Source of the DNA: a virus
IMG/VR virus record: IMGVR_UViG_3300037245_000951
Location: 1-41,669 of that record
Direction: 5' to 3' (one strand)
DNA: 41,669 nt
Part shown: positions 17,793 to 41,418 of the stretch, piece after piece
Layout: every line of letters begins with the position of its first letter
Numbering within the stretch: the stretch's first letter is position 1
Program-made: the position numbers and the translations under genes
The notes under the pieces: generated by a model
Seen by the model: the letters and a program-made list of their open reading frames with translations, nothing else
Databases searched by the model: none
Told to the model about the DNA's origin: nothing

Positions 17793-18088
17793 GATTGTTT
17801 GGGTCTGTTGATTTCTCTGTAAAATTAGGTATTTATAACCGAAATAAAAATAAATATTGCAGAAATTTTTAAAATATTTTTAGGGGGTAGGCTAAGCAGT
17901 TATAGGTTAGGGGATTAACTGCCAATAAGGAAGGCCTACAAAGCTTTTTAGTCTTTGTATACCTGTATTTGTCTGGCAATCAGCTTATTAGATCACAAAG
18001 CTTTTGAAATAAACAAAGTAAACAAAGATCCCCTAGACTACTATAACCTATATATTAACCCTATATTAGTATTATATATTTACTAATT

Positions 18089-18189
18089 AAAGGTTTTGGT
18101 ATATTATTGTTTATTTTGTTTATTCGCTTCTAATCGGCTGGCGCTCAAATGATTTGAGATAAACAACCTTTGTTTATTTTTGTTTATTA
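18089..18189 (+). repeat. 101-bp repeat R1
   Basis: Begins AAAGGTTTTGGTATATTATTG and ends TTTATTTTTGTTTATT, in register and equal in length with R2 (39558-39658). The outer parts are nearly identical and the middle (18136-18158) has diverged. Contains a perfect dyad ATAAACAA-CCT-TTGTTTAT at 18159-18177. Confidence 0.85.
18159..18177. promoter_or_regulatory. Dyad operator-like site in R1
   Basis: ATAAACAA, three bases, TTGTTTAT: perfect 8-bp arms. The same dyad (7-bp arms) occurs in R2 and R3. Typical size for a dimeric repressor or an initiator. Confidence 0.6.
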
Positions 18190-18209
18190 GTATTTACATA
18201 CTGTCTTTC

Positions 18210-18662
18210 CTATCTTTCTTTCCTATCTTTCTTTTTTAGAAAGGGAAGATCAATATTTCGGGTTACTGTGTTTGCAATCTTCTCAACTGAACGGCCAACC
18301 ACATAACCCCCTATGCCGATTTTAAGCAGCCCCCAGAACTCTTCAGGCAATTCGTCCCTTACGCTAATTGAGTTCGGTAAAAATGCTGGCTGAATGAAAA
18401 AAGCGTATACAACTACAAAGGCGAATGCTAACATTACAAGTGGCCTCCAAGATCTTTGCAACCAGTTTCCGGTAGCTTCTTTTGAGATTATAGCCGCTTG
18501 TAAAGTCTGGAGTTTATCAAAGGCCCCCATTATAACAGAAGTTAATTTCTCTTTAGCAGCCATCTTCTTAGCGTCATTTGTGAAGGTGTTATCGAGAATA
18601 CCCCCAACTGAATCAACCAGATCTTTTGCGGCCCCCCCAAAAATTGTGTTTAGAATCCCCAT
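18210..18662 (-). CDS. Holin-type membrane protein (3TM holin family)
   Basis: 150 residues. The start MGILNTIFGG, then EKLTSVIMGAFDKLQTLQAAIISKEA, NWLQRSWRPLVMLAFAFVV and IGIGGYVVGRSVEKIA follow the family of 3TM holins known from gene-transfer agents and many phages. There are two clear hydrophobic segments, about residues 73-92 and 110-123. It is the last gene of the late transcript and probably times host lysis. Confidence 0.85.
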   Translation of the reverse strand: MGILNTIFGGAAKDLVDSVGGILDNTFTNDAKKMAAKEKLTSVIMGAFDKLQTLQAAIISKEATGNWLQRSWRPLVMLAFAFVVVYAFFIQPAFLPNSISVRDELPEEFWGLLKIGIGGYVVGRSVEKIANTVTRNIDLPFLKKKDRKER

Positions 18663-18687
18663 AAAAAAGTGTTTTATTTATAATTTT

Positions 18688-19092
18688 CTATTTACTAAGA
18701 CTTCTTATGTCCTCCTTAATATCTTTCCGAAGTTGCGAAAATTGTTCTATGAGATTAGACATCTGACTAGCCACCAGGGTCTTATTTGAGTCTATTTGAC
18801 GGTCAACGGTATTGAATTTTTCGTTTACGGTTTTAAATTTCTCCTCTATGAGATCTATAATTTGGTCGAAAACGGCGGATACTTGGCCAGCTAAGACTTT
18901 CTTATCTGAGTCTATTTGGGTATCGATGTTTTTAAATTTTTCTTTTATTGTTTCAAGTTGGGCGGATATTAATCGTTCGTCAACCTTAGCGTCAATCCTA
19001 CGATTCATACTTCGAGTCATAAAAGCCCAGGCTGTAAAAACAGAGACGACTAAGCCCGCAGAAGCGCTTAAAGTTGTTATGTTCGAAAGCAT
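18688..19092 (-). CDS. Membrane-anchored coiled-coil protein with tandem repeat, 134 aa
   Basis: I start at the ATG at 19092 (MLSNITTLSASAG), which overlaps the previous stop as TAATG; the longer frame to 19359 lies on top of another gene. One N-terminal membrane helix (about residues 8-25) is followed by a coiled coil made of two similar blocks of about 35-40 residues (KEKFKNIDTQIDSDKKVLAGQ and NEKFNTVDRQIDSNKTLVASQ). Its place in the lysis cassette suggests a spanin- or XhlA-like accessory, but no family is confirmed. Confidence 0.72.
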   Translation of the reverse strand: MLSNITTLSASAGLVVSVFTAWAFMTRSMNRRIDAKVDERLISAQLETIKEKFKNIDTQIDSDKKVLAGQVSAVFDQIIDLIEEKFKTVNEKFNTVDRQIDSNKTLVASQMSNLIEQFSQLRKDIKEDIRSLSK

Positions 19093-19493
19093 TATTTGGG
19101 GGACTTCGGTCGATAAAAGTAGTAGATAATCCATTTGTAAGCAAAGGTTAATAATGTTAATATCGCAACTATGATTAAAGCTACATACACTTTGCTCATT
19201 CTTAATTTGTCTAGAAATAGCCAATCCAATAACGAAAAGGTAAAGCAACAGAAAAAGAAGACGAAAGACAGCATGTATAAAACGCTCACTAATTCTTTTC
19301 TTTTCTCCATAAATAACAAGCCCGAATAGGAGGAGAACAAGAAACAAGTAGATAACCAATACAAACCATCGAGATTTATCCCGAGTTTGGCGAAGTAATA
19401 AACAATTGAGAATACGACTATTCCTAAAATAGCCGTAAATCCTCCTAATAGATTAGTCCACAGGTGGGACCTTTGGTGTGGGGTCGTCATCAA
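19092..19493 (-). CDS. Four-TM membrane protein, 133 aa
   Basis: Hydrophobic segments at about residues 13-33, 44-61, 70-90 and 102-126, separated by short polar loops, with a basic C-terminus (YRPKSPK). It is coupled to the next gene by a TAATG overlap. Probably a second holin, antiholin or envelope protein of the lysis cassette. Confidence 0.7.
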   Translation of the reverse strand: MMTTPHQRSHLWTNLLGGFTAILGIVVFSIVYYFAKLGINLDGLYWLSTCFLFSSYSGLLFMEKRKELVSVLYMLSFVFFFCCFTFSLLDWLFLDKLRMSKVYVALIIVAILTLLTFAYKWIIYYFYRPKSPK

Positions 19494-19539
19494 GTTCGTC
19501 AGGTTCTTCCGGGCAACGGTATTTAAGATAATTTTCCAT
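19453..19539 (-). CDS. Possible 28-aa leader peptide
   Basis: ATG at 19539, TAA at 19453. The peptide starts MENYLKYRCPEEPDELDDD and is acidic. It overlaps the start of the four-TM gene in another frame and is the first frame after the promoter at 19581-19588. It may be a real small gene or only a coupling leader. Confidence 0.4.
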   Translation of the reverse strand: MENYLKYRCPEEPDELDDDPTPKVPPVD

Positions 19540-19580
19540 GAATAAAAAACTTTTAAGAGTTAAACAAATAACTTGTACCA

Positions 19581-19588
19581 CAAAGATA
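19581..19588 (-). promoter_or_regulatory. Promoter -7 element TATCTTTG for the lysis cassette
   Basis: TAnnTTTG match within GTATCTTTGTGGTAC; the late promoter has GTAGCTTTGTGGTGT. It lies directly after the terminator at 19595-19618 and 42 bp upstream of the small frame starting at 19539. Confidence 0.55.
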
Positions 19589-19589
19589 C

Positions 19590-19618
19590 AAAAAAAAGCT
19601 CATTTATTTTTGAGCTTT
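19590..19618 (-). terminator. Intrinsic terminator
   Basis: On the minus strand, AAAGCTCA, an 8-nt loop, TGAGCTTT, then a run of Ts. It starts 3 bp after the stop of the zinc-ribbon gene at 19622. Confidence 0.8.
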
Positions 19619-19621
19619 AAC

Positions 19622-19918
19622 CTATTGGCCTGCGGATTTGTTTATCACATCAGTTAAAATCTTCGATTGGATCAAAATTTTGGCACCACAGGCTCCGCAA
19701 TAACCGCTAAAGTCCATTATAGAGTCTTCGCTACATTTTGGACATGTAAAGACAAGCCCTTCCCAGCGTCTATAATGCTCTTTTACCAGGTTTTCATCAG
19801 TTACAATAGCATCTCGATTGATAACGACGTCCTTTTGGTGTATGGGGCAGGGCCCGGATTTGAATTCTGCGTCACAATTACATATGACCTCTTGGTTATT
19901 TCTTTTTGGATTGCTCAT
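19622..19918 (-). CDS. Zinc-ribbon protein, 98 aa
   Basis: Starts at the ATG at 19918 (MSNPKRNNQEV). A longer frame to 20044 runs through a hairpin and the previous gene, so I reject it. An early CNC...GPCPIH group and a later CPKC...CGACG group give two likely metal sites. No function recognised. A terminator follows. Confidence 0.68.
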   Translation of the reverse strand: MSNPKRNNQEVICNCDAEFKSGPCPIHQKDVVINRDAIVTDENLVKEHYRRWEGLVFTCPKCSEDSIMDFSGYCGACGAKILIQSKILTDVINKSAGQ

Positions 19919-19935
19919 AATAGGGGTGTTTAGAA

Positions 19936-19967
19936 AAAAGGGAGAAAGTCTATTCCTTCTCCCTTTT
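19936..19967 (-). terminator. Hairpin between two small genes
   Basis: AAAAGGGAGAA (19936-19946) and TTCTCCCTTTT (19957-19967) form an 11-bp stem. On the minus strand it is followed by TCTAAACACC, with only short T content beyond the arm. It may partly terminate after the CHKPG gene or lower read-through. Confidence 0.6.
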
Positions 19968-19986
19968 AAATTAGAATTACTTCTTT

Positions 19987-20157
19987 TTAGCCTCTGTTTT
20001 TTTTTCTCCTTGGCTTTACGGGTTCCTTGATGATTATCGGGCATGCCCCAATTGTGTCGCCATGTCCCAGGTGACCGGGCACAGCACTAGGCGGTACGAA
20101 AATTGTTTTTTCCGCAGGCGTTCCAGGCTTATGACACATAGTTACTTTGCCAGGCAT
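19987..20157 (-). CDS. Small CHKPG...HLGHGD motif protein, 56 aa
   Basis: ATG at 20157 to TAA at 19987. The peptide starts MPGKVTMCHKPGTPAEKT and continues FVPPSAVPGHLGHGDTIGAC. This C-H-x-P-G...A-V-x-x-H-L-x-H-G-D-x-x-G-x-C module recurs in secreted proteins of Bacteroidota. Here it stands alone with a basic tail encoded by nine As. Its function is unknown; metal binding by the Cys/His residues is possible. It is 18 bp downstream of the glycine-rich gene and was probably overlooked because a longer frame overlaps it. Confidence 0.72.
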   Translation of the reverse strand: MPGKVTMCHKPGTPAEKTIFVPPSAVPGHLGHGDTIGACPIIIKEPVKPRRKKNRG

Positions 20158-20175
20158 CGGCACGTCCGGATCACT

Positions 20176-20745
20176 TCAACCGTGATGCTTGTGGCTTAAC
20201 GCGTTGATAGTCTCTAATTGAGTTATCTTGGCATTAGCCGCATCAAGTAATCTGATATTACTACGGCCTTCAACCTCAAGAATCAATTCACGAGTCTTAT
20301 TAGCTTCTGCACTAACAAGCTTCTGAGTATCACAAGCATTCTTTTGAGCCAACAATTTGGCCTCACAACAACACTTGGCCTCGTCTTTTGCATTGCCAAT
20401 CGATAAAGCCTCGATATCGCGCTGACGATCATTGCTTCTAAATTCTTGGTCGGTTATTTGTTTTAATACAGCCTCTATTTGAGAATTTCGAGTTTGGTTC
20501 TCGAAAGAACTCAATAGCGTGTTTAGCCCATCGCTAAACCTAGTAGAACTACAATTAAGGGCCTCCTTAGTTGCAGTCCCATTCGCATGCGCTTCAGCAG
20601 CCAATACACTGTTCCCAGTATACATTCCACCGCCGCCGCCGTAGCCTCCACCGCCGCCATAGCCGCCAAAGCCGCCATAACCACCAAATCCACGAGCCAA
20701 TAACAAGCTAGTGGTATCAATGTCTCTTCCATAATTATTTTCCAT
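20176..20745 (-). CDS. Glycine-rich protein with helical C-terminal part, 189 aa
   Basis: Residues about 19-41 are made of G, Y and F (GFGGYGGFGGYGGGGGYGG), encoded by GC-rich triplet repeats unlike the AT-rich surroundings. A helical region (about 50-185) with a CCCEAK cysteine cluster follows, ending HKHHG. It has its own TAnnTTTG promoter, a 16-bp palindrome and a perfect AGGAGGT ribosome site, so strong expression is likely. A structural or virion-associated role is inferred from its position after the tail genes; no family is certain. Confidence 0.78.
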   Translation of the reverse strand: MENNYGRDIDTTSLLLARGFGGYGGFGGYGGGGGYGGGGGMYTGNSVLAAEAHANGTATKEALNCSSTRFSDGLNTLLSSFENQTRNSQIEAVLKQITDQEFRSNDRQRDIEALSIGNAKDEAKCCCEAKLLAQKNACDTQKLVSAEANKTRELILEVEGRSNIRLLDAANAKITQLETINALSHKHHG

Positions 20746-20756
20746 AATAACCTCCT
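20746..20756 (-). promoter_or_regulatory. Strong ribosome binding site AGGAGGT
   Basis: AGGAGGTTATT directly before the ATG at 20745. Most other genes in the window lack such a site, which marks this gene out for high translation. Confidence 0.7.
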
Positions 20757-20769
20757 ATATTTAGTTGTG

Positions 20770-20785
20770 TTCCCAATATTGGGAA
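20770..20785. promoter_or_regulatory. Perfect 16-bp palindrome
   Basis: TTCCCAATATTGGGAA lies between the -7 element at 20792-20799 and the ribosome site of the glycine-rich gene, roughly at +1 to +20. It is a likely operator for a dimeric regulator. Confidence 0.6.
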
Positions 20786-20791
20786 AAGGTT

Positions 20792-20799
20792 CAAATCTA
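20792..20799 (-). promoter_or_regulatory. Promoter -7 element TAGATTTG
   Basis: A TAnnTTTG match about 47 bp upstream of the glycine-rich gene. It lies between the terminator at 20818-20847 and the palindrome. Confidence 0.55.
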
Positions 20800-20817
20800 A
20801 AAGGTTAGGCGACATAA

Positions 20818-20847
20818 AATAGCCAAGCTTTTTAAGGCTTGGCTATT
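20818..20847 (-). terminator. Terminator after the tail genes
   Basis: AATAGCCAAGC (20818-20828) pairs with GCTTGGCTATT (20837-20847), 11 bp with an 8-nt loop, followed on the minus strand by TTATG. A second short GC palindrome GCCCGCGGGC at 20901-20910, with a run of Ts after it on the minus strand, may add to termination of the tail operon. Confidence 0.72.
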
Positions 20848-21014
20848 AAATCAAACAACTATGAAAAAAGGTTTTGGCTAGGTTTAGCTAAAAAAAAGAG
20901 CCCGCGGGCATGGTCGCCAAACCTTAGTATAAAGGTACTCTAAAAAATCAAATAATCAAATTTATTATAGTGTCCCTATATCCTTAAGAATATCATAAAT
21001 TGGGGCTATTATTT

Positions 21015-22781
21015 TTACAATTCACTTTTATATATTGGCTTAATTTCAAACAACTTGCCTAATATTAAATTGGATATTACTAGATACCCAGGCTTGAATG
21101 GGTGGGTACCATCAGAAAGAAAATAGGTATGGTTGATTGGGTTCCATCCGCAATTACCGAATATAGATATATAAGGCATTCCGTAATATTTAGCAACTTC
21201 AACCATAGCCTCAGCGTAATCACCCATCTTTAGGCCCGCACCGTTTATGGCAAATGTCGAATAACCCGGGGGTGTAATCATCAAGATTCTTACTGTTGGC
21301 ATCAAGGCCAATATCTTTTCAATAGCCATTGAAACGGAACCTTTGAAGGTTGTGTTTGTCAGTACCCCCGCAACTCCTAGAGGGATGTCGTTTGCGTAAT
21401 CATTCGTCCCACCCTCAACTGTTAAAAGTTCTGTATCAAGTGGAATAGTACCTATTCTTTCATCATTACTCATCGAAGTAAATATTTCAAAATAGTCAAC
21501 GCCTTCAGTTCCCGCCGGCGGTGCGGCTGGTGGTCTTGACAATAATAACCCGCTACCATCTACCCAGGCTATTTCAGCTATCTGGGCAAAAGTACTTGAA
21601 CCGATGCCCCTGATAGTATGAACCAAATCAGTGGCCCCAACTATGTTTGGTTGGTATCCGTTTGCCTCCGTTATGCTCGTTCCAAGAGAAGTCCATTTTA
21701 AACCGGCGTACTTGAATTCTGTATTTAATTCTCTGTCATGATCGTATGAATAAGGCTTGTAAGATTCTGGTAGGCTTGCCCCTTCAACTATCATCACCTC
21801 GTAAGGTGCTACGGCTGAAGTCTGAGAAGCTACCCGTATAAACGCCGCATTAGATGGTGTAGTGAAGCTAGTCACCCCATTTAAGGCTGTTATGTATCCT
21901 TTTGCGATATTATAAAACTCAACTTGGTTTGTATTATTGTTACTGTGCAGCTTATTAGGCTTTACTTTCATATAAGCGCTAGTAAAAAAAGCAGCATTCG
22001 GAGTTAATACCCCCCCAGACAAGTAGAACTCGTCTACTATTGTCCTTTTATCAAATAAGTTAATAGTCTTTGATAGAAAAGAGGTTTGCTCTTGATTAAT
22101 AGCTCCATCTTTAAACATAATATCTCTTATGGGTGTATACGCAAAAGGTATATATTCTGCTAAGGTACTAGCTCCTGCCACTACCATAAGGGCCTCAGGA
22201 TCTACTCCCGTGGTTTGGGAGGATACCCTTACAAATACTGCATCCGCTGAAGTTGTGAAACTTGTAACGGCATTAACACTGCTTATATAGTCCTTATTAG
22301 CGTCATACCATTCGACTTGATTGGTGTTATTATTTGAGTATAAAGTGGAAGGCGTAACCTCCATATATCCACTAATAAAAAAATCGGGATTTGCTACGGG
22401 GATACCCCCAGATAGATAAAACCCGTCTATTATAGTGTCCTTATTAAAAATATTTGCTGTAGGTAATACCGAAGTGGCAACGCCTACTTGGTTTATCTGC
22501 CAGCCGTTTCTATATGTGAGTACTGCCATCCTACTCCCATCGTGTAGATAGCCATCAAAGTTAGCATACACCCCCGCTTCTGAGGCTATATAAAATAACA
22601 CTCCGTCGGGAGTACCTGGGGCTGTTGTGGGAGTGGCCACACCTTTAAAAGTTGCATTTTCACCCACATTATCAATTATAGAGTTAAGGGCATTTTGTAG
22701 TAGTTGCCCGGTTATTTCCTCTAATCCGTTTGTCTTTATCACCGCGGCTATAGCGGTTTTTAAATCTGTCCAATTTGCCAT
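21015..22781 (-). CDS. Tail/receptor-binding protein with SGNH hydrolase domain and duplicated module
   Basis: 588 residues. The N-terminus (MANWTDLKTAIAAVI) looks like a tail-attachment part. Two similar modules of about 105 residues follow, near 110-215 and 240-345 (both have FYLSGG, SNNNTNQVE, VTSFTT and VRV/IRV). The C-terminal part is an SGNH/GDSL esterase: block I LGTSITEANG near 364, block III EGGTNDYAND near 458 and block V SDGTHPFKPGY near 555. It likely binds and deacetylates surface polysaccharide of the host. Confidence 0.85.
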   Translation of the reverse strand: MANWTDLKTAIAAVIKTNGLEEITGQLLQNALNSIIDNVGENATFKGVATPTTAPGTPDGVLFYIASEAGVYANFDGYLHDGSRMAVLTYRNGWQINQVGVATSVLPTANIFNKDTIIDGFYLSGGIPVANPDFFISGYMEVTPSTLYSNNNTNQVEWYDANKDYISSVNAVTSFTTSADAVFVRVSSQTTGVDPEALMVVAGASTLAEYIPFAYTPIRDIMFKDGAINQEQTSFLSKTINLFDKRTIVDEFYLSGGVLTPNAAFFTSAYMKVKPNKLHSNNNTNQVEFYNIAKGYITALNGVTSFTTPSNAAFIRVASQTSAVAPYEVMIVEGASLPESYKPYSYDHDRELNTEFKYAGLKWTSLGTSITEANGYQPNIVGATDLVHTIRGIGSSTFAQIAEIAWVDGSGLLLSRPPAAPPAGTEGVDYFEIFTSMSNDERIGTIPLDTELLTVEGGTNDYANDIPLGVAGVLTNTTFKGSVSMAIEKILALMPTVRILMITPPGYSTFAINGAGLKMGDYAEAMVEVAKYYGMPYISIFGNCGWNPINHTYFLSDGTHPFKPGYLVISNLILGKLFEIKPIYKSEL

Positions 22782-22783
22782 AT

Positions 22784-23641
22784 CTAAGTTATATTAAAGT
22801 CATCATTATAATCGATATAAAAATCCCCTAGCTCTGTAGGAGCAATACCTCGACCTATTTTCTTTATCACTGTATCACATTGGAATTCACATTCTACAGA
22901 AGCTAGATAGCCTCCCGCTCTCCATTTAGGAGTCATTAAAAAACTGTCAGCTTCATATACCTCCCCCTTATTGGTTATCACAATATTATCAGACATGCGA
23001 ATGAGACGCATAGCATCAAGTAAGTATTCAGGGGCAACAAAATTAAATTTAAAAGTCTTCTCACTTATTTGTTTTTCTATATATTTGAAGCCATCCCTTT
23101 TCTGGACTTCTTCCTCGAAAATGTATTCCGGTCGTCCAAGTTGAGTATCTAGATAGAGATTGAATTTAAAACTCCCAGAATAATCTATTCGCCCCCAGTC
23201 GAGGATTAACTTTTCGTTGTCCCAATACTCCAGTTTTAAATAGTTGTCCAAATTCCGAACCACGTTAAAGACTTCACTATAGAAATATTCTACGCCATCA
23301 AACATTTTTAAGTAGTAGGGACCCTCGGTAACATCTATGACCATAGGTAAAATCCCCTGATATTGTATAATATCATAACCCTCTGATTGGAATCTATTGA
23401 CAATTAAACCCGAAGTTTTCATAGGGTCAACGATGTCAGCTACAAGAGTGTCATCTACGTGCTTTAATTCTACACTAGTGATTTGATTAGCTCTGGTATT
23501 TCGAATAATCTGAAAAGGTAATATCTTCCTATAGGGGGTTAGCAGCGGAAAAACTTCGCCGAAAGCATAGTCCTTTCTATGATTTTGTCTTGAAAGTTGA
23601 CCGTAAAAAGGTAGGATAGATAGAGGGTTATTCGGTGTCAT
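22784..23641 (-). CDS. Tail protein, 285 aa
   Basis: Beta-rich protein with no membrane segment, located between two large tail genes and overlapping the upstream one by 14 bp. This order (tape measure, large tail protein, about 290-residue protein, fibre) is common in Bacteroidota siphophages, where such proteins form the tail tip or baseplate. Exact role unknown. Confidence 0.78.
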   Translation of the reverse strand: MTPNNPLSILPFYGQLSRQNHRKDYAFGEVFPLLTPYRKILPFQIIRNTRANQITSVELKHVDDTLVADIVDPMKTSGLIVNRFQSEGYDIIQYQGILPMVIDVTEGPYYLKMFDGVEYFYSEVFNVVRNLDNYLKLEYWDNEKLILDWGRIDYSGSFKFNLYLDTQLGRPEYIFEEEVQKRDGFKYIEKQISEKTFKFNFVAPEYLLDAMRLIRMSDNIVITNKGEVYEADSFLMTPKWRAGGYLASVECEFQCDTVIKKIGRGIAPTELGDFYIDYNDDFNIT

Positions 23642-25748
23642 ATTTCAAATTTATAGTATTCATTCTACTCGACAAATTTACGGATATTTTTTGGATTTCA
23701 CCGTCTCCTATATTAGTTTTTATAAGCTTAACAGGGTCTAGGTCTAATATACTAGGGAATTTTATAGTTTGTTTTTTCTTACGCTGAACCCCTTCCACGA
23801 CCACAGGCCCTCCATTTATAAGGGCCTCAGTGCTTGGTAAATCGTAGACCCAAAATTTAGGCTGTAAATAAACCCAGCTCATAAAACCATTTTGCAAAAC
23901 TAAATTGGCTTCATCGATAGAGAGATGGACAAAAGGTAGCTTATATTCTCCAGAAACATATTCAGCACCAAATAAGGCGAACCCGTCGGAAGTTATACTG
24001 CCTGGGTTCGCGAGCATATAATCCACATCTGAAGTAAATACTCCGGCGTTGATTGTCTCAATCTTACCTTTTTGCACGAAATTAGATGTTATTTCTATAG
24101 GTTGTCCCCCAAAACCATCGGTTACATCGTCCATCCAGGAAAACTCTATACGTTCCTCCATATCTAATTTACCATAAGTGTATGGAGAAGTTCCAAGTCC
24201 CCAAAGTTTTTTATTTTTTGGGTCTGTCAGAGTGGTTAAGTCGACGCTGTATTGAGGGCTCCAGGAATAACTCCCTCCATTTTTAAACCAGTGTAAATGT
24301 TCTATTTTAAATTTATTATCCTCTATGTACCAATAGCATCGCATAACATTCTTGAGCATGTTAGTCACCCCAGTTAAGGTGATAGGGGCTTTTTGCGCTG
24401 GGCGGTCATACTCTCCGGCTAAAACATTAGATTTCTGAGTAAGCATTACCCTAAAGGCTGGGTCAAGAGTTATGGGATTTGTAACCCCATATAAGAACTC
24501 GCTGTATTCAGCCGTCCCTTCGTGGCTTATTCCAGGGGCAATCTCTGCCAACAACACTTTGATAGCAGCGGATAACATTATGGCATCTTTTAAGATATAA
24601 GCTTTTCGGCCAGCAATTTCTACATTTGCGTCATGGGTAGAGAAATTGAACCATATAGACGAAAGGCCCCAAGTGCTTCGGGCTATAGGGTAGTATTTAT
24701 CTCCGGGAGGTGGTTTAAAGTACAGGCCATCATCGTTGCGCCCGAATTCGGTAGGTTCAATCTGGGCAGCACTTGTGGTGGTATATTGGTCATGTGCGTG
24801 GCCTATCACTCTCCTATAATTTCTGTTATTTGCTGTGATATCTTCTGAGGGTATCCCATAGGTATTAACCCCGAATAACGTGTCAACATCCAACATATAC
24901 CTGGTGAACACCTCTCGGATAGTGTATTGGCAATCCCCACTACCCGAAACGCCGGAACCCAGGGTGGGGTTGATTGTAAAATCTCCAGCACGAACAGGCT
25001 TCGGATAATCCATGGATGCGTATATTTCCTCGCTATCAGCCATTCGGATTAGAGCCCATCTAAAAAAGAATTCCCCGATAGATATAGCCTTGATTTTATA
25101 TGTTGCCTCAGCGTTAGTCCATTCGGTTAAACCTCCCCCAGAGTACCTCCCTAGCGCTTCTGTCTCACTTAGATCCCCCGAGATATTAATCTCCCCCAGA
25201 CTACTGGATTTCTCAAAATGATAGTCGCTTATCAGGCTCCCGCTTTCTAATTCGTCGACCGAAAATAAGGTATCTTGTTCCCAGTAGGTACCGCTTAAAA
25301 AACAACTTATCGTATTATCCCCAGGGACATATACCTGTAACAAAGGGCGCTTTGTGACGCTTACGGGGGTCAAAGCCGGAGCTAATTTAATAAGATTATA
25401 CTCTTTACCCATGCCTGTAAGCACGTCGCTGTAATCGTCTTTAACCGCTGTTTTAACTACTACTTTTCTGTTGTCGGGATCCCACTGGCAATCTGTTTTA
25501 TAAAATTTTCCTGACCAGTAGTCGGACCATGAGCCATTAATTTCCATCTCAATCAGTAGGCTAAATTCCGTATCGAAAGGCTGATTATTTAACCAATCAA
25601 ATTCGGTACGTAAAAAAGTAAGACTACCAGACAGCGATGCCCTGTAAAATCTTTGTTGAGATTCCATTGCATATTCCTTGGATAGTCCGTCTTTATATAA
25701 AGGCGAAACGGATTGCCCGTTTATTGAGAATCTATAATTAATTTGCAT
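23628..25748 (-). CDS. Large tail tip/baseplate protein, 706 aa
   Basis: Starts MQINYRFSINGQSVSPLY and is rich in beta strands, aromatic residues and GSWSDYW-like motifs. It directly follows the tape measure gene, where the distal tail or tail-tip protein is expected. No enzymatic motif is seen. Confidence 0.8.
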   Translation of the reverse strand: MQINYRFSINGQSVSPLYKDGLSKEYAMESQQRFYRASLSGSLTFLRTEFDWLNNQPFDTEFSLLIEMEINGSWSDYWSGKFYKTDCQWDPDNRKVVVKTAVKDDYSDVLTGMGKEYNLIKLAPALTPVSVTKRPLLQVYVPGDNTISCFLSGTYWEQDTLFSVDELESGSLISDYHFEKSSSLGEINISGDLSETEALGRYSGGGLTEWTNAEATYKIKAISIGEFFFRWALIRMADSEEIYASMDYPKPVRAGDFTINPTLGSGVSGSGDCQYTIREVFTRYMLDVDTLFGVNTYGIPSEDITANNRNYRRVIGHAHDQYTTTSAAQIEPTEFGRNDDGLYFKPPPGDKYYPIARSTWGLSSIWFNFSTHDANVEIAGRKAYILKDAIMLSAAIKVLLAEIAPGISHEGTAEYSEFLYGVTNPITLDPAFRVMLTQKSNVLAGEYDRPAQKAPITLTGVTNMLKNVMRCYWYIEDNKFKIEHLHWFKNGGSYSWSPQYSVDLTTLTDPKNKKLWGLGTSPYTYGKLDMEERIEFSWMDDVTDGFGGQPIEITSNFVQKGKIETINAGVFTSDVDYMLANPGSITSDGFALFGAEYVSGEYKLPFVHLSIDEANLVLQNGFMSWVYLQPKFWVYDLPSTEALINGGPVVVEGVQRKKKQTIKFPSILDLDPVKLIKTNIGDGEIQKISVNLSSRMNTINLKYDTE

Positions 25749-25754
25749 TATATA

Positions 25755-31973: not shown

Positions 31974-31991
31974 AATTTAGAGCTAAAAATA

Positions 31992-32028
31992 AAAAAGAGG
32001 ATAGGGTCTCAAAACCTATCCCCTTTTT
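31992..32028 (-). terminator. Strong terminator after the major capsid gene
   Basis: AAAAAGAGGATAGG (31992-32005) and CCTATCCCCTTTTT (32015-32028) form a 14-bp stem with one G-T pair and a 9-nt loop. A run of Ts follows on the minus strand. Probably lets capsid transcripts accumulate over tail transcripts. Confidence 0.8.
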
Positions 32029-32051
32029 AATTAATCAAAAATCAACAACAA

Positions 32052-33152
32052 TTAAACTACTTCTTTAGTATTTACAGGATCTGCTTCAGAGTTAACAATA
32101 CGAATATCCATCGCATCAGTTACGTCTTCAGAGCTAATGGTCAATTTCATAATAGGGGTAGCGGCCGCACCCATAAGAGGTGTAATAAAAGCTACATCGA
32201 CACTAAAACCATAATGCTCCTTTCTTACAGCGGTCATATCCGCCGAAGCTGCTCCAGCTATAGCGCTATAATCGCCTTTGCTCTCATAGTAATAAGTTCC
32301 TACAGGAAAATTAAGTAGTGGAAGTGTTTCTATTCCCCACTCTGTGCCGTCGGCCATGGATGTCCCCAAAATAGCTTCACGGTCAAATCGGGTAAGTATC
32401 CCCAAAGATCCACCGTTTACAGCATACATGTTTGCAAACTCACCGACATCATTAGATACTCGGGTTGAGAAATGCAGTATTTTGTCAGAGTATTCTAACG
32501 TTTTATTCTCAACATTGTATAGGTCCTTTTGTGCCAGTTTTCTGATTATTGACTCAACCCCAGCATTACCTAAAACGTGAATATCGCTAAAATAATCATT
32601 GGCAGCCATCATAGGGTTAATATCACCTATAACATTTTCACGCGATTTCCAGGGGGCGATTACGGCAAAGCCTGTTTCGGTATAATTTAAAAGATCAGCA
32701 AAGACCTGAGTCTTAGCAGAAGCTAAGGCAGCAACCGCCGCAGCGTCTAGGACCTCACCGAATTTATACAGATACTTTTTAAATTTCCGCTCAAAATCTT
32801 TCTGCATGGATACCTCATTATTCAAAAATAGAGAAGGTACTGAAGTGAACCCCCACGAGTAGGTCGTAAAAGTAATCTGATACATATCCGAGGTATTCTC
32901 AGAATCAGCAATAACAACTGACCTGGTATCCCCGATAGTTACCCCCGCGTCGAATTCGATGACTGGTGTTTCCAAAGTGGAACCTATGGACTTCTCGGCT
33001 TTGGCTTTCAACTCCTCGGTGATTAGCCCCGCGGGATCTTCGGTTTGGGACATAAAAAGGTTTAGCGCTCCATATCGTGAAGGGCGTAATTCGTACTTAT
33101 CCAAATTACCATTTGCTCTGGCGTTTTGGATTCTAGTATTAATCAATGACAT
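32052..33152 (-). CDS. Major capsid protein, 366 aa
   Basis: Starts MSLINTRIQNARANG. It has an N-terminal arm, a central region with EKSIGSTLETPVIEFDAGVTIG and alternating alpha/beta segments that fit an HK97-like fold. It lies after the scaffold gene and before a strong terminator, as expected for the most abundant virion protein. The assignment rests mainly on place, length and composition. Confidence 0.85.
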   Translation of the reverse strand: MSLINTRIQNARANGNLDKYELRPSRYGALNLFMSQTEDPAGLITEELKAKAEKSIGSTLETPVIEFDAGVTIGDTRSVVIADSENTSDMYQITFTTYSWGFTSVPSLFLNNEVSMQKDFERKFKKYLYKFGEVLDAAAVAALASAKTQVFADLLNYTETGFAVIAPWKSRENVIGDINPMMAANDYFSDIHVLGNAGVESIIRKLAQKDLYNVENKTLEYSDKILHFSTRVSNDVGEFANMYAVNGGSLGILTRFDREAILGTSMADGTEWGIETLPLLNFPVGTYYYESKGDYSAIAGAASADMTAVRKEHYGFSVDVAFITPLMGAAATPIMKLTISSEDVTDAMDIRIVNSEADPVNTKEVV

Positions 33153-33210
33153 AAGTTAAGGATTTAATTAGAAAATAATGAAAACTTATAACGCGTTACC
33201 CTTGCACGTT

Positions 33211-33236
33211 AAAAAAGCGAACCTCAAAGACTCGCT
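33211..33236 (-). terminator. Weak terminator between membrane protein and capsid genes
   Basis: AGCGA and TCGCT arms around about 11 nt, with a run of six Ts after the hairpin on the minus strand. It lies in the 103-bp gap upstream of the major capsid start... in transcript order it comes after the gene at 33256-33654. Confidence 0.45.
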
Positions 33237-33255
33237 CTAATTAATGCAAAATTAC

Positions 33256-33654
33256 TTATTTTTTTTGGAATAATAAAAGGATTCCTTGTATAATTTTTGT
33301 ATCTGCTACTCCGTTAGCCGCGAGTGATGCTCCAGCACCATATAATACCGCCCACCAGAAAGACAACTCAACAAGAAACCCAAGACCTAAAAACCAGCCT
33401 ACCATAGTGAGTCCTATGCCTATCCCCCAGGTTACTACCTGTACAATTATATTATGCGTCGCCTTGGTTTTACCAAGAACCCTTAATATGAAATGGCTAA
33501 CTATAGGGATGGCCAATACAAGCGCCCCGAAAGTTGCAAAGATAGAAGTTAGCACCGTTGGGATTTCCAAATCCCCGCCCTGGGCAAACAAAGCAGAGAT
33601 AGGAAACAATAGCAGCAGCATCAAGGGCAAGCAATATTTTATAAATTTTTTCAT
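33256..33654 (-). CDS. Membrane protein with signal-like start, between scaffold and capsid genes
   Basis: Starts MKKFIKYCLPLMLLLLFPISALFAQGG, a good signal peptide with a likely cut after ALFA. Two or three further hydrophobic segments follow (about residues 38-58, 70-92 and 98-112). It is out of place among head genes; a holin or envelope protein is possible. No family assigned. Confidence 0.72.
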   Translation of the reverse strand: MKKFIKYCLPLMLLLLFPISALFAQGGDLEIPTVLTSIFATFGALVLAIPIVSHFILRVLGKTKATHNIIVQVVTWGIGIGLTMVGWFLGLGFLVELSFWWAVLYGAGASLAANGVADTKIIQGILLLFQKK

Positions 33655-33690
33655 AACGAATTATTTTTAGATATTAGATAATTTTTTTAA

Positions 33691-34632
33691 TTAGCGAGTA
33701 GGCAACTTAGTTACGCCGTTGTCTATTCTTATTTTGCTTTGCTTCTCAGAGAATGACGCAGTACCTTTTAATTCTCCTTGTTGGAGTAGGTACTTGACAA
33801 TTATATTATCAGCTTCGACTTGAGTTTTAGCTCCTGCAATATCAACAATCTCAATAACTGCTGAATCACCACCAGAGGCTCCAGTTCCTGCACCCGTGGT
33901 TTTTTTACCTGTGTCCAATACCTCAGCTAGATTTTTAGCAATGAGTTCTGCCGCGGTGTAGGGCTCTTGTAAATTGTTTGGGTTGCGCATGATCTCGCCT
34001 TTTTCATCTCTGAAAATCATCACTTTCCCCGCGGTCGTCTCAATAAAATCAGTTTTTGAAGTGGCAAGGATGCCAGCCTTCGCCGCGTCGATAAGTGTTT
34101 TTTGAATGGCTTCAGGGTATCCGGCTTTAAATTTAAGGCCTGCGGTTGCTTTATCGAAAACTGCGGACACTTGAATCCCTGATAACTTAGTGGCAAACTC
34201 CCCCTTCTCAGTTTCCCAACTGGTCTTATCTGAGTCGAATTGACCTTGTAGCGCTGTGAGTTTACCCACTGAATCCTTGAGTTGTTGCTTAATTACCTCA
34301 TCCCCCGTACCCTCAGCTATAGACGTTTCAAGACTGGTTATCTTGGTTTTGTATCCAACTACCTCTTTAGTCAAGACCTCGGAGTTTGAGGCTTTATCCT
34401 TGTAGGAGCCCAACACCCTCTTTACAAAATCGTAGCTTTTTTCTCCTTGGTTCTTCTCCATACCCGTCACTTCGAGTACATCCTTGTCGTAGGCACCATG
34501 AATCTCTCCAACTTTGGCGCCTATAACAGTGACCTCGTCATTTGTAGATAAGGTTGCAATTGCCGTTATTTGTTCATCGGTTAAACCCGTTAAGGCTTCA
34601 TTTGCTTTTAATGCTTCTGCGTTTAATGCCAT
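33691..34632 (-). CDS. Scaffold-like head protein, 313 aa
   Basis: Helical, charged central region with a coiled-coil look (YKTKITSLETSIAEG and LTALQGQFDSDKTSWETEK), then a glycine-rich linker and a small C-terminal part. Its place between portal and major capsid is the usual scaffold position. Confidence 0.8.
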   Translation of the reverse strand: MALNAEALKANEALTGLTDEQITAIATLSTNDEVTVIGAKVGEIHGAYDKDVLEVTGMEKNQGEKSYDFVKRVLGSYKDKASNSEVLTKEVVGYKTKITSLETSIAEGTGDEVIKQQLKDSVGKLTALQGQFDSDKTSWETEKGEFATKLSGIQVSAVFDKATAGLKFKAGYPEAIQKTLIDAAKAGILATSKTDFIETTAGKVMIFRDEKGEIMRNPNNLQEPYTAAELIAKNLAEVLDTGKKTTGAGTGASGGDSAVIEIVDIAGAKTQVEADNIIVKYLLQQGELKGTASFSEKQSKIRIDNGVTKLPTR

Positions 34633-34667
34633 AATTTTTCCCTTCGAATTATAGATTTATATAAAAA

Positions 34668-35012
34668 TTAACTACGGTATTTAATCGGATCCCACATGAT
34701 CTTAACTGTGAAACCTAACCCCTTACCATATTTTAAAAAGGCATTCCAATCTGAGGTCGTAAATTTTTGATTGTACGCCTTGCTTAGCTTTTTCCCATTC
34801 TTAATATCGAAGATAGTTTTGTCCAACTCGACATGGAACAAGTGCCTCTCCTTTACTGGTGGTAAATACTTAGGCTTTGGACGCCCCGATTGGGCAGCCT
34901 CAATTTTAGCCGCTTCAATTTTAGCAGCTTCAGTTGTAGCCCCTTTTGTTGCCGAAGATCCTCCCAGAAGGTCATTGATCTCCGTTTGGTTGCTCTTGTT
35001 GCTCTCTGCCAT
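34668..35012 (-). CDS. Hypothetical head-region protein, 114 aa
   Basis: A low-complexity N-terminus with a short AAKIEAAKIEAA repeat, then a basic, conserved-looking C-terminal half (LPPVKERHLFHVELDK). Overlaps the end of the portal gene by 41 bp. Role unknown. Confidence 0.7.
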   Translation of the reverse strand: MAESNKSNQTEINDLLGGSSATKGATTEAAKIEAAKIEAAQSGRPKPKYLPPVKERHLFHVELDKTIFDIKNGKKLSKAYNQKFTTSDWNAFLKYGKGLGFTVKIMWDPIKYRS

Positions 35013-36696
35013 AATCTTTAAATTTTTGAATTATTATATTTATTTTCTTTGATAGTTCTAATTGAGAGCCAAATTCTATGACGTTGGTATTCTCACGCTC
35101 GAACCTTTCAACAAAGGTATTAAAATTTATTTTAATAATTAGTAGCTCTGGATTTAAAAAGTCATTGTTCTTTAATGTCATTAGCTCATTAAGAGAGTAG
35201 TGCGAATAGGGTTCAAGCTGCTTTAATATAAACATGCGCTCTAATTGTGTGGGGTTGTTTCGATATTCAGTTGCCAGGATCTGATCGTTGATGGCGTCAA
35301 GCTCTGACTCACTAGCCCCATTCTCCTTGGCTCTTTTGTAATTAGCATATAGGTCAACCACCGTGTATATATAGAATTCTGTGCCCATTGAGATGGAGCT
35401 CTTGAGAAAATTGTCACCATAGCGTAATCGGCAAATAGTATCATCTGCAAATTTCCTGGCTTTCTCCAGATTACCTTTAAGATTATTTAAGACGCCTACG
35501 CGGCTTTCAAATCCTGCTGTAACTTGTAACTCGTTAAGGCTTTGTTTTTGTTGGACATCTCCACCCAAGCCAACTGTGCTGGTGAATACCTCATTTGTGA
35601 GTCTCTTAACCTCTTCGACATTATAGGCTAAGCTGTCTTTGTCTATTGTGGTTATTTGTACGGGGTTTTTTAAGTCTGGTTCCTCCTTAGTTGGTATAGG
35701 GATTTCAATCATTGACCCAGCCCCGGCTAAACGTTTATTCGAACAAACCGGGCAAACTTGGATAGCCCCATTACGCTCTATTTTGTACATATCATCTTTA
35801 TCCCTCAGATAGCCCCCGTCGCAAATATCTCCGGTAAGCTTATCCTCGAAATCGCAGGACGCTTCATAGGCTGAGTAAATTGGATAAGAGGCATATAAGT
35901 CTAGATGGCGTTTACTGATCGCGAAGAACAGAAGCCAATCAAGATTAGCCAATTGAGGAGATAAGGGTGATTTCTTTATATCTGGTGTTTTTTGGCTCAG
36001 TTCTGTAGACCAAAAGAAATCGGCTGGACAGTATCCTAACCCGTGGGGTTGCTTGGATATCTCAGCCTTAATGGTCTGGTTATCCTCGCTCATCTGAAAC
36101 ACTCTATACTCCTCATCATCAAAAACAGCCAACCTGTTGTTGCTTTGTCTGAAAAATATATCAGTGATAACTCCATCTTTATATGTATAGTCTAACACGT
36201 TCTCAACCCCCAAAAAATAGAAGTAAGGCTCCGGGGCATCTGTAGTTTGTTCAATAGGTAAATCAACAATCAGCACCGAATTAATGGCCGTGCGTACAGC
36301 CTTCCAGCCTTTATCCCTCCATACTTGAGGCTCCTTAAGGTTATCCTGCTTATATCTCTCCCAATCATCTCGGTAATCTGCGTCAGTAAATTGGTAATTA
36401 TAAGTTGGGTTACGACCGTCAAATACCCGCTCCAATTCTTTGAAAATAGTATCTGATAGCTGGATAATAGGGCTAGGAAGTTTGAACAAGCTAACAAAGA
36501 TGTTGTATTTGTCTCGAGGGATAAGGGTCTTAACCCAATCGAGAAAGATTGTAAGAGGCTGGACTATCTCATTTTGATCCATAGCGCTTTCAGTGTGGAA
36601 TCTCAAACGACTTTCATGCTTGATCGCTTTGGCTATAACCTGGGATTTATTTGGACTCTGTATCCTCTTCTTTATTTCGTCTAATGTTAATGCCAT
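34972..36696 (-). CDS. Portal protein, 574 aa
   Basis: Large protein in the position between terminase and scaffold. I take the start at the ATG at 36696 (MALTLDEIKKRIQ); the longer frame begins at 36744 and runs further into the gene upstream. It includes a central segment with VCPVCSNKR cysteines and a helical C-terminal half (NLKGNLEKARKFADDTICRL), as in Bacteroidota phage portals. The assignment is by size and order. Confidence 0.82.
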   Translation of the reverse strand: MALTLDEIKKRIQSPNKSQVIAKAIKHESRLRFHTESAMDQNEIVQPLTIFLDWVKTLIPRDKYNIFVSLFKLPSPIIQLSDTIFKELERVFDGRNPTYNYQFTDADYRDDWERYKQDNLKEPQVWRDKGWKAVRTAINSVLIVDLPIEQTTDAPEPYFYFLGVENVLDYTYKDGVITDIFFRQSNNRLAVFDDEEYRVFQMSEDNQTIKAEISKQPHGLGYCPADFFWSTELSQKTPDIKKSPLSPQLANLDWLLFFAISKRHLDLYASYPIYSAYEASCDFEDKLTGDICDGGYLRDKDDMYKIERNGAIQVCPVCSNKRLAGAGSMIEIPIPTKEEPDLKNPVQITTIDKDSLAYNVEEVKRLTNEVFTSTVGLGGDVQQKQSLNELQVTAGFESRVGVLNNLKGNLEKARKFADDTICRLRYGDNFLKSSISMGTEFYIYTVVDLYANYKRAKENGASESELDAINDQILATEYRNNPTQLERMFILKQLEPYSHYSLNELMTLKNNDFLNPELLIIKINFNTFVERFERENTNVIEFGSQLELSKKINIIIQKFKDYGREQQEQPNGDQ

Positions 36697-36841
36697 GCTC
36701 GTCGAGTTGATAGTTAGAATCTTCAGGTAATCGCCAACCGCCATTATTTGGCATTCTTAGGATGCGCTCGGCGTGGCTTATTTCAAAATCTTGTAATCTA
36801 TCACCCACCTGTAGGGTGATAGACTTTATCCTTCCACTCAT
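36647..36841 (-). CDS. Small protein upstream of portal, 64 aa
   Basis: Reads SITLQVGDRLQDFEISHAERILRM then NGGWRLPEDSNYQL. Small proteins of this pattern (V-G-D...F...S-H-A-E-R-I-L-R...G-W-x-L-P) commonly precede portal genes in Bacteroidota phages. Function unknown. Overlaps the portal start. Confidence 0.75.
   Translation of the reverse strand: MSGRIKSITLQVGDRLQDFEISHAERILRMPNNGGWRLPEDSNYQLDEHGINIRRNKEEDTESK
36797..36823 (-). other. Perfect 10-bp hairpin within the 64-aa gene
   Basis: TCTATCACCC and GGGTGATAGA separated by 7 bp, about 18 bp after the start codon. It may regulate translation or be a chance result of the codons. Confidence 0.5.
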
Positions 36842-36845
36842 AATT

Positions 36846-37481
36846 TTAGACTTGAGGTGTAATTAGGTCAGTTAAGGCGTTAAAATCTGTAGGCGCTATA
36901 ATCACTAGATTATCAGACCAATTAGGATTGAACTTCCAGCTAATAACATTCATGTCCGGTGCCTCTAAACCCCCGAGGGATTTATCCCCAACAAAGAGGG
37001 ATCTTATTGGGATAGGGGAATACTCAGTTGGGGTACCTCTGTCATCCACCAAGCAAGCTATGCGCCCAAATTCATCGACCAGGAATACCCCCAGGTTTTC
37101 ACCTTGGTAATCCTTGAGTGCTGTGATGGTCTCTTGACCCGATCTTAATATGTTGCCTGTGAATGACGTAGGCTCCCGCCCTATAATCATCTCAGCTCCC
37201 CCAAGGGTTTCATTACCACCACCATAGGTAAGCGCCGCGCCAGGTTCCGTGGTCGGTGCTTGAATATAGGGGGTTTGAACTACCTTAGTGCCGTCTGATG
37301 CGGCTAACAGCGTGGACCAACTGGCTAGGACGTGAGGGTCTGCTATAACATTCTTTGTCGCCCCTGTGGAAAAAATACGCTGTAATATAACTTTCTGCAC
37401 TTGCCCTAGTGACTCAGGACAAGTCCCTATTGGTACATCCGGAATCGAAGCTCCCAAAGGGCAATTAAAAAGAATTCCCAT
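36846..37481 (-). CDS. Structural protein between terminase and portal, 211 aa
   Basis: Starts MGILFNCPLGASIPD and has a beta-rich, low-charge composition typical of virion proteins. It has its own promoter element at 37518-37525. It may be a decoration or head-fibre protein; no family is certain. Confidence 0.72.
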   Translation of the reverse strand: MGILFNCPLGASIPDVPIGTCPESLGQVQKVILQRIFSTGATKNVIADPHVLASWSTLLAASDGTKVVQTPYIQAPTTEPGAALTYGGGNETLGGAEMIIGREPTSFTGNILRSGQETITALKDYQGENLGVFLVDEFGRIACLVDDRGTPTEYSPIPIRSLFVGDKSLGGLEAPDMNVISWKFNPNWSDNLVIIAPTDFNALTDLITPQV

Positions 37482-37517
37482 AAGTAATAAACTTTAAATT
37501 AGATAATATTATCAATA

Positions 37518-37525
37518 CAAAGATA
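37518..37525 (-). promoter_or_regulatory. Promoter -7 element TATCTTTG
   Basis: TAnnTTTG match in the 54-bp gap between the large terminase gene and the structural gene at 37481. Would give structural genes extra transcription over the terminase. Confidence 0.5.
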
Positions 37526-37535
37526 CAATTATTTT

Positions 37536-38714
37536 TTAATTTCGTCGCCGTAGCTTTCTTTTTTGTCTTTGCTTAGACAGTTTGAAGGTGGCCAAATACC
37601 TCATAGGGTCAATACAATGGTTAAAAGCATCGATAGGAATATTAAGAGCTTTGCCCGCTCTATCAGTATCCCAGGCATAAGTCCTAAGCTCCTTAATCAA
37701 ATTTGTACTCCTCCTGGTTACGAGGAAATCTGATTCCTGTAAGACATCTATTCCAAACTTTATAGAGTCTTTGCCCTTGATAGCCCCTTGTACTCTAAAC
37801 CCGTAGCGGTTAATCTCGGCTATAGACTTAGGCTCAGCACTATCTGCTACGACAAAATCGAATTTCTTGATACCTTTAGCCTTCATCACTTTGGCTATGT
37901 CCCCATTCGTTAAGCCTTTTTGGTATAGCTCCTCATCCCAAATAACTTTATTATTCCAAGTATATGCAGCCATTATCGTGGTGGGATCGTTGGTAAATCC
38001 AAAGTCAATGGCGTAGCCTATAAGCCTGGCTTCTTCAGGGACCTGATCTATTAGGCGCCAATTATTAAATATGACTCCTTCAAGTTTACCTAATAATCCT
38101 AGCCCGTAGACCTTCCACCAATTAGCCCAATAGCTTGAGGTCTTAGCTTTCTCCTTGGCTTTCTCTATCTCTTTTATAATAGATTCGGCTAAGGCCTCAT
38201 TGTCCTTGTAGGTTAACGCCAACCACTCGATATCCTTATCAGGCTCCAACTCTTCATGTACCCAGAAAGCGTTTGAGGGGTTGAAATCAAGCCATATATG
38301 TAGGTCCGTTCTTATGGCGAGCTGGTGGTATGTTTCAAAAGAAACATTGTTGCACTCGTTAACATATAATATGTTACGTCTTGGGCCCCTTACTTTACCC
38401 TCCTGATCGGCCGAGAAGAATTCTATAACTGAGCCGTTTGAAAAGGTGTAGGTGAGTAGGGTTTTATTGTAGTGGTCGTCAATCCAACGGCCTGTCTGTT
38501 TCATTATTTTAATGAAGTCCTTAAGCGCCCCTTTTCGTAGGTGGGGTATACTCTCAGATACTACAGAGATTTCAAGCTCAGGTGATTTAGTAGCCGTATC
38601 GATTAGTATGGGTAATATCCCATAAGTTTTTCCGGCACTGGTCCCACCAGGAACCACGCGTGTGCGCGCCCGCATTTTTCGGAGCTTCTTTATAGCGGTA
38701 GTGTATACGAACAT
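37536..38714 (-). CDS. terL: Terminase large subunit
   Basis: 392 residues. Walker A GGTSAGKTYG at residues 23-32, Walker B ILYVNECNN near 118, then the RNase-H-like nuclease acids AIDFGFTNDPT near 240, VVADSAEPKSI near 296 and NHCIDPMRYL near 372. This is the packaging ATPase and nuclease. It follows terS with an 11-bp gap. Confidence 0.95.
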   Translation of the reverse strand: MFVYTTAIKKLRKMRARTRVVPGGTSAGKTYGILPILIDTATKSPELEISVVSESIPHLRKGALKDFIKIMKQTGRWIDDHYNKTLLTYTFSNGSVIEFFSADQEGKVRGPRRNILYVNECNNVSFETYHQLAIRTDLHIWLDFNPSNAFWVHEELEPDKDIEWLALTYKDNEALAESIIKEIEKAKEKAKTSSYWANWWKVYGLGLLGKLEGVIFNNWRLIDQVPEEARLIGYAIDFGFTNDPTTIMAAYTWNNKVIWDEELYQKGLTNGDIAKVMKAKGIKKFDFVVADSAEPKSIAEINRYGFRVQGAIKGKDSIKFGIDVLQESDFLVTRRSTNLIKELRTYAWDTDRAGKALNIPIDAFNHCIDPMRYLATFKLSKQRQKRKLRRRN

Positions 38715-38725
38715 TTATTTGGCGT

Positions 38726-39256
38726 TTAGTCTTCTCCGAAAAGAGGCTGCTCTGTTTTGACATCAATTTGGCTCTTAGCTACGAGACCTAAGTCACTGGC
38801 TATTATGTTAGCATTAAAGGCCCCAACCGCGGCGCCGCTGAATTTTTGATCATACATAAGTTTACCTATGTACGCAATGGTGTCCGAGAATTCTGCGTAA
38901 TTCCCCTTAGAATTGGCCTTATAATCCTCTAATTTCGCCAGTAAACCCTTGTTAGACAGGTAGGTATCAAGTCCAGTCCAAGTATAAGGTCTAATCGTTG
39001 GCACCCCTATAATCTTCCCAGCAGCCTGCCCACCTTTCAAAACTTCTTGCTTCATAAAGGGGTTTTCATCTACCTCTATCACATAGTTTTTGAAATGCAC
39101 CAGGAGTTCTTCAGGGTCTTTTATGTTCTTAGGTCTACCAACTTTCCTAACATCCAGGTCTCTCCATTTAGAGCGCTTAGGTTCTATAGTTGGTATCTCT
39201 TCAGGAGCCCCCATCAGCTCATCACACATCTTTTTGGCGTTATATTTTTTAGGCAT
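38726..39256 (-). CDS. terS: Terminase small subunit
   Basis: 176 residues. GRPKNIKDPEELLVHFKNYV near the N-terminus and a helical second part (FSDTIAYIGKLMYDQKFSGAAVGAFNANIIASDLGL) match DNA-packaging small subunits of the gp3 type. First gene of the late operon, 25 bp downstream of the late -7 element. Confidence 0.88.
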   Translation of the reverse strand: MPKKYNAKKMCDELMGAPEEIPTIEPKRSKWRDLDVRKVGRPKNIKDPEELLVHFKNYVIEVDENPFMKQEVLKGGQAAGKIIGVPTIRPYTWTGLDTYLSNKGLLAKLEDYKANSKGNYAEFSDTIAYIGKLMYDQKFSGAAVGAFNANIIASDLGLVAKSQIDVKTEQPLFGED

Positions 39257-39281
39257 ACGATTTTATTTTCAGATTACACCA

Positions 39282-39289
39282 CAAAGCTA
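39282..39289 (-). promoter_or_regulatory. Late promoter -7 element TAGCTTTG
   Basis: TAnnTTTG match 25 bp upstream of terS, in context GTAGCTTTGTGGTGTA. A possible -33 TTTG lies 22 bp upstream. Confidence 0.62.
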
Positions 39290-39557
39290 CACTTATTTTA
39301 GGCTTTTAGGGCAAATAAACAAAGAATTTTTAAACCTAGGCCGCTAATTCGCTGAACCCTAAGGCCTATGACTTTACCAAATAAAGTATTGTTTATCTTT
39401 GTTTACCTATAAAATCTTAGGCGACAACAACTTGACCCCAAAATAAACAGGATATTCAATAAACAAAGCACCTAAACTTATATAAGCTATAAACGTATAT
39501 ACGCGTTACATATATAGATATGTATATACCCCCTATATCTATCTATATTTAATATAT

Positions 39558-39658
39558 AAAGGTTTTAGTATATTATTGTTTATCTTGTTTATTCGCTCCT
39601 AACTAGCTGGCGCATAGAAGTCCACAGGTAAACAATCTTTGTTTATTTTTGTTTATTC
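39558..39658 (+). repeat. 101-bp repeat R2
   Basis: Same length and register as R1 (18089-18189), with the conserved outer parts AAAGGTTTTAGTATATTATTG and TTTGTTTATTTTTGTTTATT. Contains the dyad TAAACAA-TCT-TTGTTTA at 39629-39645. Confidence 0.85.
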
Positions 39659-39702
39659 CTGTTTACCTATTTCTCGATTTCACCAAATGAGAAGTTTTGC
39701 GT

Positions 39703-39786
39703 TTTCTTTGTTTATCTTGTTTATTTGCGCGCAACGTATTGGCTCGCAACAGCTTACAGGTAAACAACCTTTGTTTATTTTTGTAT
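39703..39786 (+). repeat. Partial repeat R3
   Basis: Shares CTTTGTTTATCTTGTTTATT and the dyad TAAACAA-CCT-TTGTTTA (39761-39777) with R1 and R2, with a different middle. Confidence 0.72.
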
Positions 39787-39810
39787 ACCCTACTTCCTAG
39801 CTAAAAAGTT

Positions 39811-39833
39811 AGCTAGCTCGGCTGGAGCTAGCT
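39811..39833. other. Perfect 9-bp inverted repeat next to the terminator
   Basis: AGCTAGCTC, five bases, GAGCTAGCT. It is 7 bp from the terminator stem and could be a second hairpin or a protein site. Confidence 0.55.
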
Positions 39834-39840
39834 TGAAAAG

Positions 39841-40123: not shown

Positions 40124-40133
40124 GGCTTTAATA

Positions 40134-41414: not shown

Positions 41415-41418
41415 AACC

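Follow-up and report, generated by a model that had tools for sequence, protein, structure and literature searches.

Paired iteron modules heading the early and late operons of a phage are probable replication origins served by a VapE-type primase-helicase

The two related repeats in the viral DNA analyzed here (the window, 41,669 nucleotides) are very probably replication origins of the PICI/SaPI (PriRep/VapE) type, both served by the VapE protein of the phage, whose C-terminal domain would bind their iterons; since they lie about 6 and about 10 kb away from vapE, whereas PICIs have their origin directly 3' of the rep gene, they are to be regarded as a variant that works alike rather than as strict members of that type. 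The assignment is drawn from sequence, that is, from the architecture of the elements, their conservation, their phylogenetic association with VapE and the homology of VapE to a SaPI initiator of solved structure.

Portal, head, tail and terminase genes are present, so the window belongs to a phage and not to a PICI, a satellite island that lacks a complete virion gene set. All genes are minus-strand genes and form two blocks. The early one starts with a 54-aa gene (17792) and the XRE gene (17588) and encodes a DUF2800 exonuclease, an Enc34-type SSB, polymerase A, the VapE-type primase-helicase and an SNF2 helicase, and the late one begins with terS (39256), continues with portal, head and tail genes and ends with a holin-like protein at 18210. 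Gap A (17793-18209) is located ahead of the early block and gap B (39257-39940) ahead of the late block. The window ends (1-1619 and 40051-41669) are about 92 to 94% identical, and therefore a circular genome of about 40.05 kb is probable. The features are as follows (coordinates in the window).

9713-12109, minus strand: VapE/PriRep-type primase-helicase, 798 aa, proposed initiator, with a predicted C-terminal winged helix
12457-14478, minus strand: family A DNA polymerase, early operon (protein search)
15409-16620, minus strand: DUF2800 exonuclease, early (replication) operon (protein search)
17181-17588, minus strand: XRE-like protein, 135 aa, conserved neighbour
17612-17619, minus strand: Bacteroidota-type -7 box TATTTTTG, shortly before the XRE gene
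18010-18026, plus strand: candidate origin A, inner pair of iterons downstream of the core, TAAACAAAG twice with a 9-bp period
18027-18105, no strand: candidate origin A, A+T-rich core, 76% A+T (97.6th genome percentile), presumed melting site
18107-18122, minus strand: candidate origin A, iteron pair in R1, TTGTTTA twice, inverted relative to 18010-18026
18160-18186, minus strand: candidate origin A, outer TAAACAA-N3-TTGTTTA dyad together with a direct TTGTTTA, in R1
38726-39256, minus strand: terminase small subunit (terS), first gene of the late operon (protein search)
39282-39289, minus strand: Bacteroidota-type -7 box TAGCTTTG, shortly before terS (39256)
39316-39323, plus strand: lone iteron adjoining TTTG, the presumed -33 element of the late promoter-like box
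39389-39405, minus strand: further iteron pair in gap B, between candidate origin B and the late promoter-like box
39460-39467, plus strand: candidate origin B, iteron downstream of the core, with a degenerate second site at 39444 (TAAACAG)
39468-39574, no strand: candidate origin B, A+T-rich core, 76% A+T
39576-39591, minus strand: candidate origin B, iteron pair in R2
39629-39655, minus strand: candidate origin B, outer dyad plus direct iteron in R2, 53 bp from the pair
39708-39777, minus strand: R3, extra half module with a pair (39708-39723) and a dyad (39761-39777), no A+T-rich core of its own

A preliminary description had placed two 101-bp repeats, R1 and R2, and a partial copy, R3, in these gaps, and the alignment bore this out: R1 and R2 are 81% identical across 126 bp, R3 (63%) is a half copy, and the family extends over 18075-18200, 39544-39669 and 39676-39801. 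The dyad TAAACAA-N3-TTGTTTA, described there as present in each copy and confined to the two gene-free regions, indeed occurs in its exact form only three times in the window (18160, 39629 and 39761), always inside gaps A and B, and 21 of the 31 TAAACAA/TTGTTTA heptamers of the window fall within the 1.1 kb of the two gaps. When up to three mismatches were allowed, the dyad pattern was not enriched in the window (11 matches, with 6.6 expected); it is the exact dyads and the module that are significant, not the degenerate pattern. The 101-bp repeats each make up just one side of a larger module. Beyond an A+T-rich core lie inverted iterons, at 18010-18026 in the case of R1 and at 39460-39467 (a single site) in the case of R2. 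The module iterons have the consensus (T/G)AAACAA(T/A) and face each other in opposite orientation across a core of about 76% A+T (genome, 60%), with a further dyad in each module placed outward from the iteron pair at a distance of 53 bp that is the same in R1, R2 and R3. The arrangement of PICI/SaPI origins, two oppositely oriented iteron sets around an A+T-rich region, was thus found in the window as well as in relatives. One side of candidate origin B is degenerate in the window, which counts against the origin reading. A hairpin-like short inverted repeat was seen in several of the spacers between dyad and pair (L113, L159 and window positions 18125-18159).

BLASTN searches with gaps A and B against phage records gave no meaningful match, and relatives surfaced via protein or pattern only. 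Croceibacter phage P2559Y is colinear with the window. The module, shared with the window, recurs in both of its gaps, which are about half a genome from each other, and two exact dyads lie in the one that precedes terS. In IMG/VR relatives, the same module was found in the gap preceding the XRE gene and early operon, with no matches in 5.2 Mb of shuffled sequence. A search of related phages, as proposed in the preliminary description, therefore found the dyad in the same two regions. In 15 of 19 near-complete contigs, there were two iteron clusters at a distance of 0.38 to 0.63 of the contig from each other; three of the other four had one cluster, and one was under the threshold. The full form in relatives is >>>< >> [A+T core] << ><<<, and most of them have two copies that look complete, both including an A+T-rich core, while gap B often holds an extra half module resembling R3. 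In several contigs (L189, L190, L202 and L203), the module is kept at gap B in a neighbourhood without detectable similarity to the terminase genes of the window, which argues that the element does not track the packaging genes. The cultured phages P2559S, TCUEAP2, PDS1 and B124-14 have structural genes in common with the window but no VapE, XRE, DUF2800 or module, and the module is absent from the half of the AS73P1 genome that is covered.

The helicase of the window VapE matched SaPI PriRep1 (7pds) with an E value of 5.9e-72, and its C-terminal domain matched the same protein in a profile comparison (E, 1.5e-10) and in Foldseek (E, 7e-6). Hence, the phage encodes a VapE-family helicase homologous to SaPI Rep, including the C-terminal origin-binding domain. 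This domain (residues 665-798) is predicted to be a winged helix with a recognition helix from R759 (mean pLDDT, 82). Forkhead-like Foldseek matches of the VapE C terminus were weak and were taken as generic winged-helix similarity. Neither VapE nor XRE nor the protein at 16620-17153 had a match in NCBIfam. According to PMC7581432, SaPI Rep recognizes iterons by its C-terminal domain, and the isolated C-terminal domain of Cch2 was shown directly to recognize its putative origin. R759 is invariant in the AAACAA genomes compared and is replaced by P in the AAACCAT and by N in the GGAAACA lineage; as there are two such lineages and the overlap of changed columns is near chance (2 shared, about 1.3 expected), this covariation is only suggestive.

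VapE was present in all 35 relative contigs and XRE in 33 of them, and thus presence alone cannot decide which protein binds the iterons. A finder that is blind to iteron identity, detecting a repeated 6-mer pair, a gap and the same 6-mer pair inverted, gave 0 to 1 matches in 1.4 to 3.9 Mb of shuffled sequence. It detected the same architecture with AAACCAT iterons in L120, L122 and both gaps of L274, with GGAAACA iterons in L144 and, in VapE loci without a recognized XRE gene, with GTCAAC, TGTCAA, TGGATA, GAAACA, GTAAAC, TGTAAC, TGATAC and TGTCAC iterons. The module starts at or within about 320 bp of the vapE stop codon in 7 of these 8 cases, and among 74 bacterial loci there are 39 in which it lies 3' of vapE at a distance of at most 600 bp (GTDB genomes, mostly Bacillota, also Bacteroidota), figures from sets that include some related or duplicate loci and some fragmentary contigs and in which a divergent XRE could escape recognition. 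Since the module occurs with differing iterons across VapE loci whether or not XRE is recognized, VapE is the more parsimonious and most likely iteron binder.

PICI origins always have two iteron sets around an A+T-rich region (PMC6092414), and SaPI origins mirror that of SV40 in using two head-to-head helicase hexamers (PMC9894130). Given the homology of VapE and the architecture of the module, the phage elements should work as SaPI origins do. The predicted winged helix of VapE would bind the iterons, VapE hexamers would be loaded on the two oppositely oriented iteron sets and open the A+T-rich core between them, and replication would then be started together with polymerase A and SSB of the phage. 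One such origin would head the early operon and another the late operon, with about half a genome between them, and we infer that both copies fire. It is possible, at slightly less than an even chance, that the origin module was duplicated in one Bacteroidota phage clade to give two simultaneously active origins at opposite poles of the circular genome, tied to early and late gene control. The preliminary description had left the choice between one regulator or initiator for both operons and paired origins; paired origins under one initiator are well supported by the comparison, and the part assigned to XRE is not. GC skew, suggested there as a check for origin activity, gave no signal. Neither gap showed a switch (p = 0.62 and 0.40), although all genes of the window are codirectional, and both the window and P2559Y have a flat skew along the direction of coding, which neither supports nor refutes origins.

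If the repeats were instead operators by which XRE coordinates early and late transcription, with no role in replication, one would expect the architecture to occur with XRE only. The XRE gene usually lies right downstream of gap A in the 33 relatives that have it, the copies head both operons, and a 17-bp dyad has a size typical for XRE dimers. Moreover, in two relatives (G016 and G021; L110 and L116) the outer dyads of gap A read CCACAAT..ATTGTGG while the core-flanking pairs are still AAACAAT; dyads and pairs thus vary independently, and a second protein reading the dyads, possibly XRE, is conceivable. Some relatives also have inverted half-sites near the promoter. Yet an operator does not need iteron sets of opposite orientation on the two sides of a conserved A+T-rich core, the architecture occurs in VapE loci without a recognized XRE gene, and the TAnnTTTG (Bacteroidota-type -7) box lies between the module and the XRE or first gene, not in the module, in 40 of 57 XRE relatives (11 expected from random segments, which were unmatched for base composition). 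Because promoter-like boxes are mostly outside the module and the architecture is found without a recognized XRE, the operator-only reading was rejected as the main one and is very unlikely. The proposal that the XRE protein at 17181-17588 is the main binder is also not supported, VapE being the homologue of a known iteron-binding initiator; XRE may nonetheless have a role at the dyads. A comparison of iterons with the XRE recognition helix was uninformative, the two variant lineages having no altered conserved XRE column in common. Since a lone iteron abuts the late box upstream of terS, the proteins that read the module may also touch transcription, and such lone iterons suggest that VapE could affect it. 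Widely spaced inverted half-sites (AAACAAT/AAACCAT) were observed upstream of the XRE gene in L086, L120, L122, L234 and L274, near TAnnTTTG boxes and with the same iteron identity as in the module; they are possible autoregulatory sites. The small protein at 16620-17153 (phrog_408/5053, unknown function) has a variable acidic middle and a conserved C-terminal domain and is encoded between XRE and DUF2800 in the relatives read.

P4 replication uses a start site, ori, plus a helper cis element, crr, which bears iterons. By analogy, replication in the window could begin at one copy only, with the other acting in cis for the same initiator as a required or helper element. Two sites for one protein, and the extra half module often present in gap B, fit such a division, but both copies look complete with a core each in most relatives, and we consider it unlikely, though less so than the operator reading. 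A packaging, partition or recombination site, to which the position of gap B next to terS could point, is highly improbable: there are two distant copies, the module tracks replication genes and not the terminase, and no partition genes were recognized among the window proteins searched.

With PICI/SaPI origins, the elements share the two oppositely oriented iteron sets around an A+T-rich region and a cognate, self-loading VapE-family helicase with a homologous C-terminal domain, but the window is a complete phage with structural genes, has one copy half a genome from the other and both of them away from vapE, and has extra dyads 53 bp out and a different iteron sequence. P4 alpha with ori and crr is also one primase-helicase initiator with two iteron-bearing cis sites; the window VapE matches SaPI PriRep1, and both copies resemble full origins in most relatives. 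P4 alpha binds its origin by a winged helix (PMC4234260). In the putative SCCmec Cch2 origin, the C-terminal domain of the initiator helicase binds repeats next to its own gene, but that origin has few iterons and no paired inverted sets around a core are described in the accessible part of PMC7581432. XRE (Cro/repressor-like) operators share a compact dyad with an adjoining XRE gene, whereas the window dyad is embedded in the iteron and core architecture. We therefore regard the element as a variant of a known origin type, present in two copies in complete phages, a setting not found described in the open-licence PubMed Central papers searched. The modules and VapE are the likely origins and initiator of a widespread phage and prophage group, and no earlier description of the replication start sites of that group was found in those papers. 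They link phage replication to that of satellites (PICI), whose origin layout the PICI paper treated as unique, and the roughly 20 natural iteron variants with matching helicases could allow a recognition code to be worked out. If true, two origins half a genome apart would be unusual in a 40-kb phage.

The window itself showed some further repeats. Its two ends are variants of one segment, with genes 335-1729 recurring at 40384-41669, and the circle of about 40.05 kb was likely assembled across two strains. Short tandem repeats lie inside a coding region at 1853-1946, where RLRAAKRL-like residues are repeated. A 90-nt A+T-rich repeat (83%) is found at two intergenic spots of the early operon, 3190-3279 and 4845-4934, and these are perhaps repeated promoter regions.
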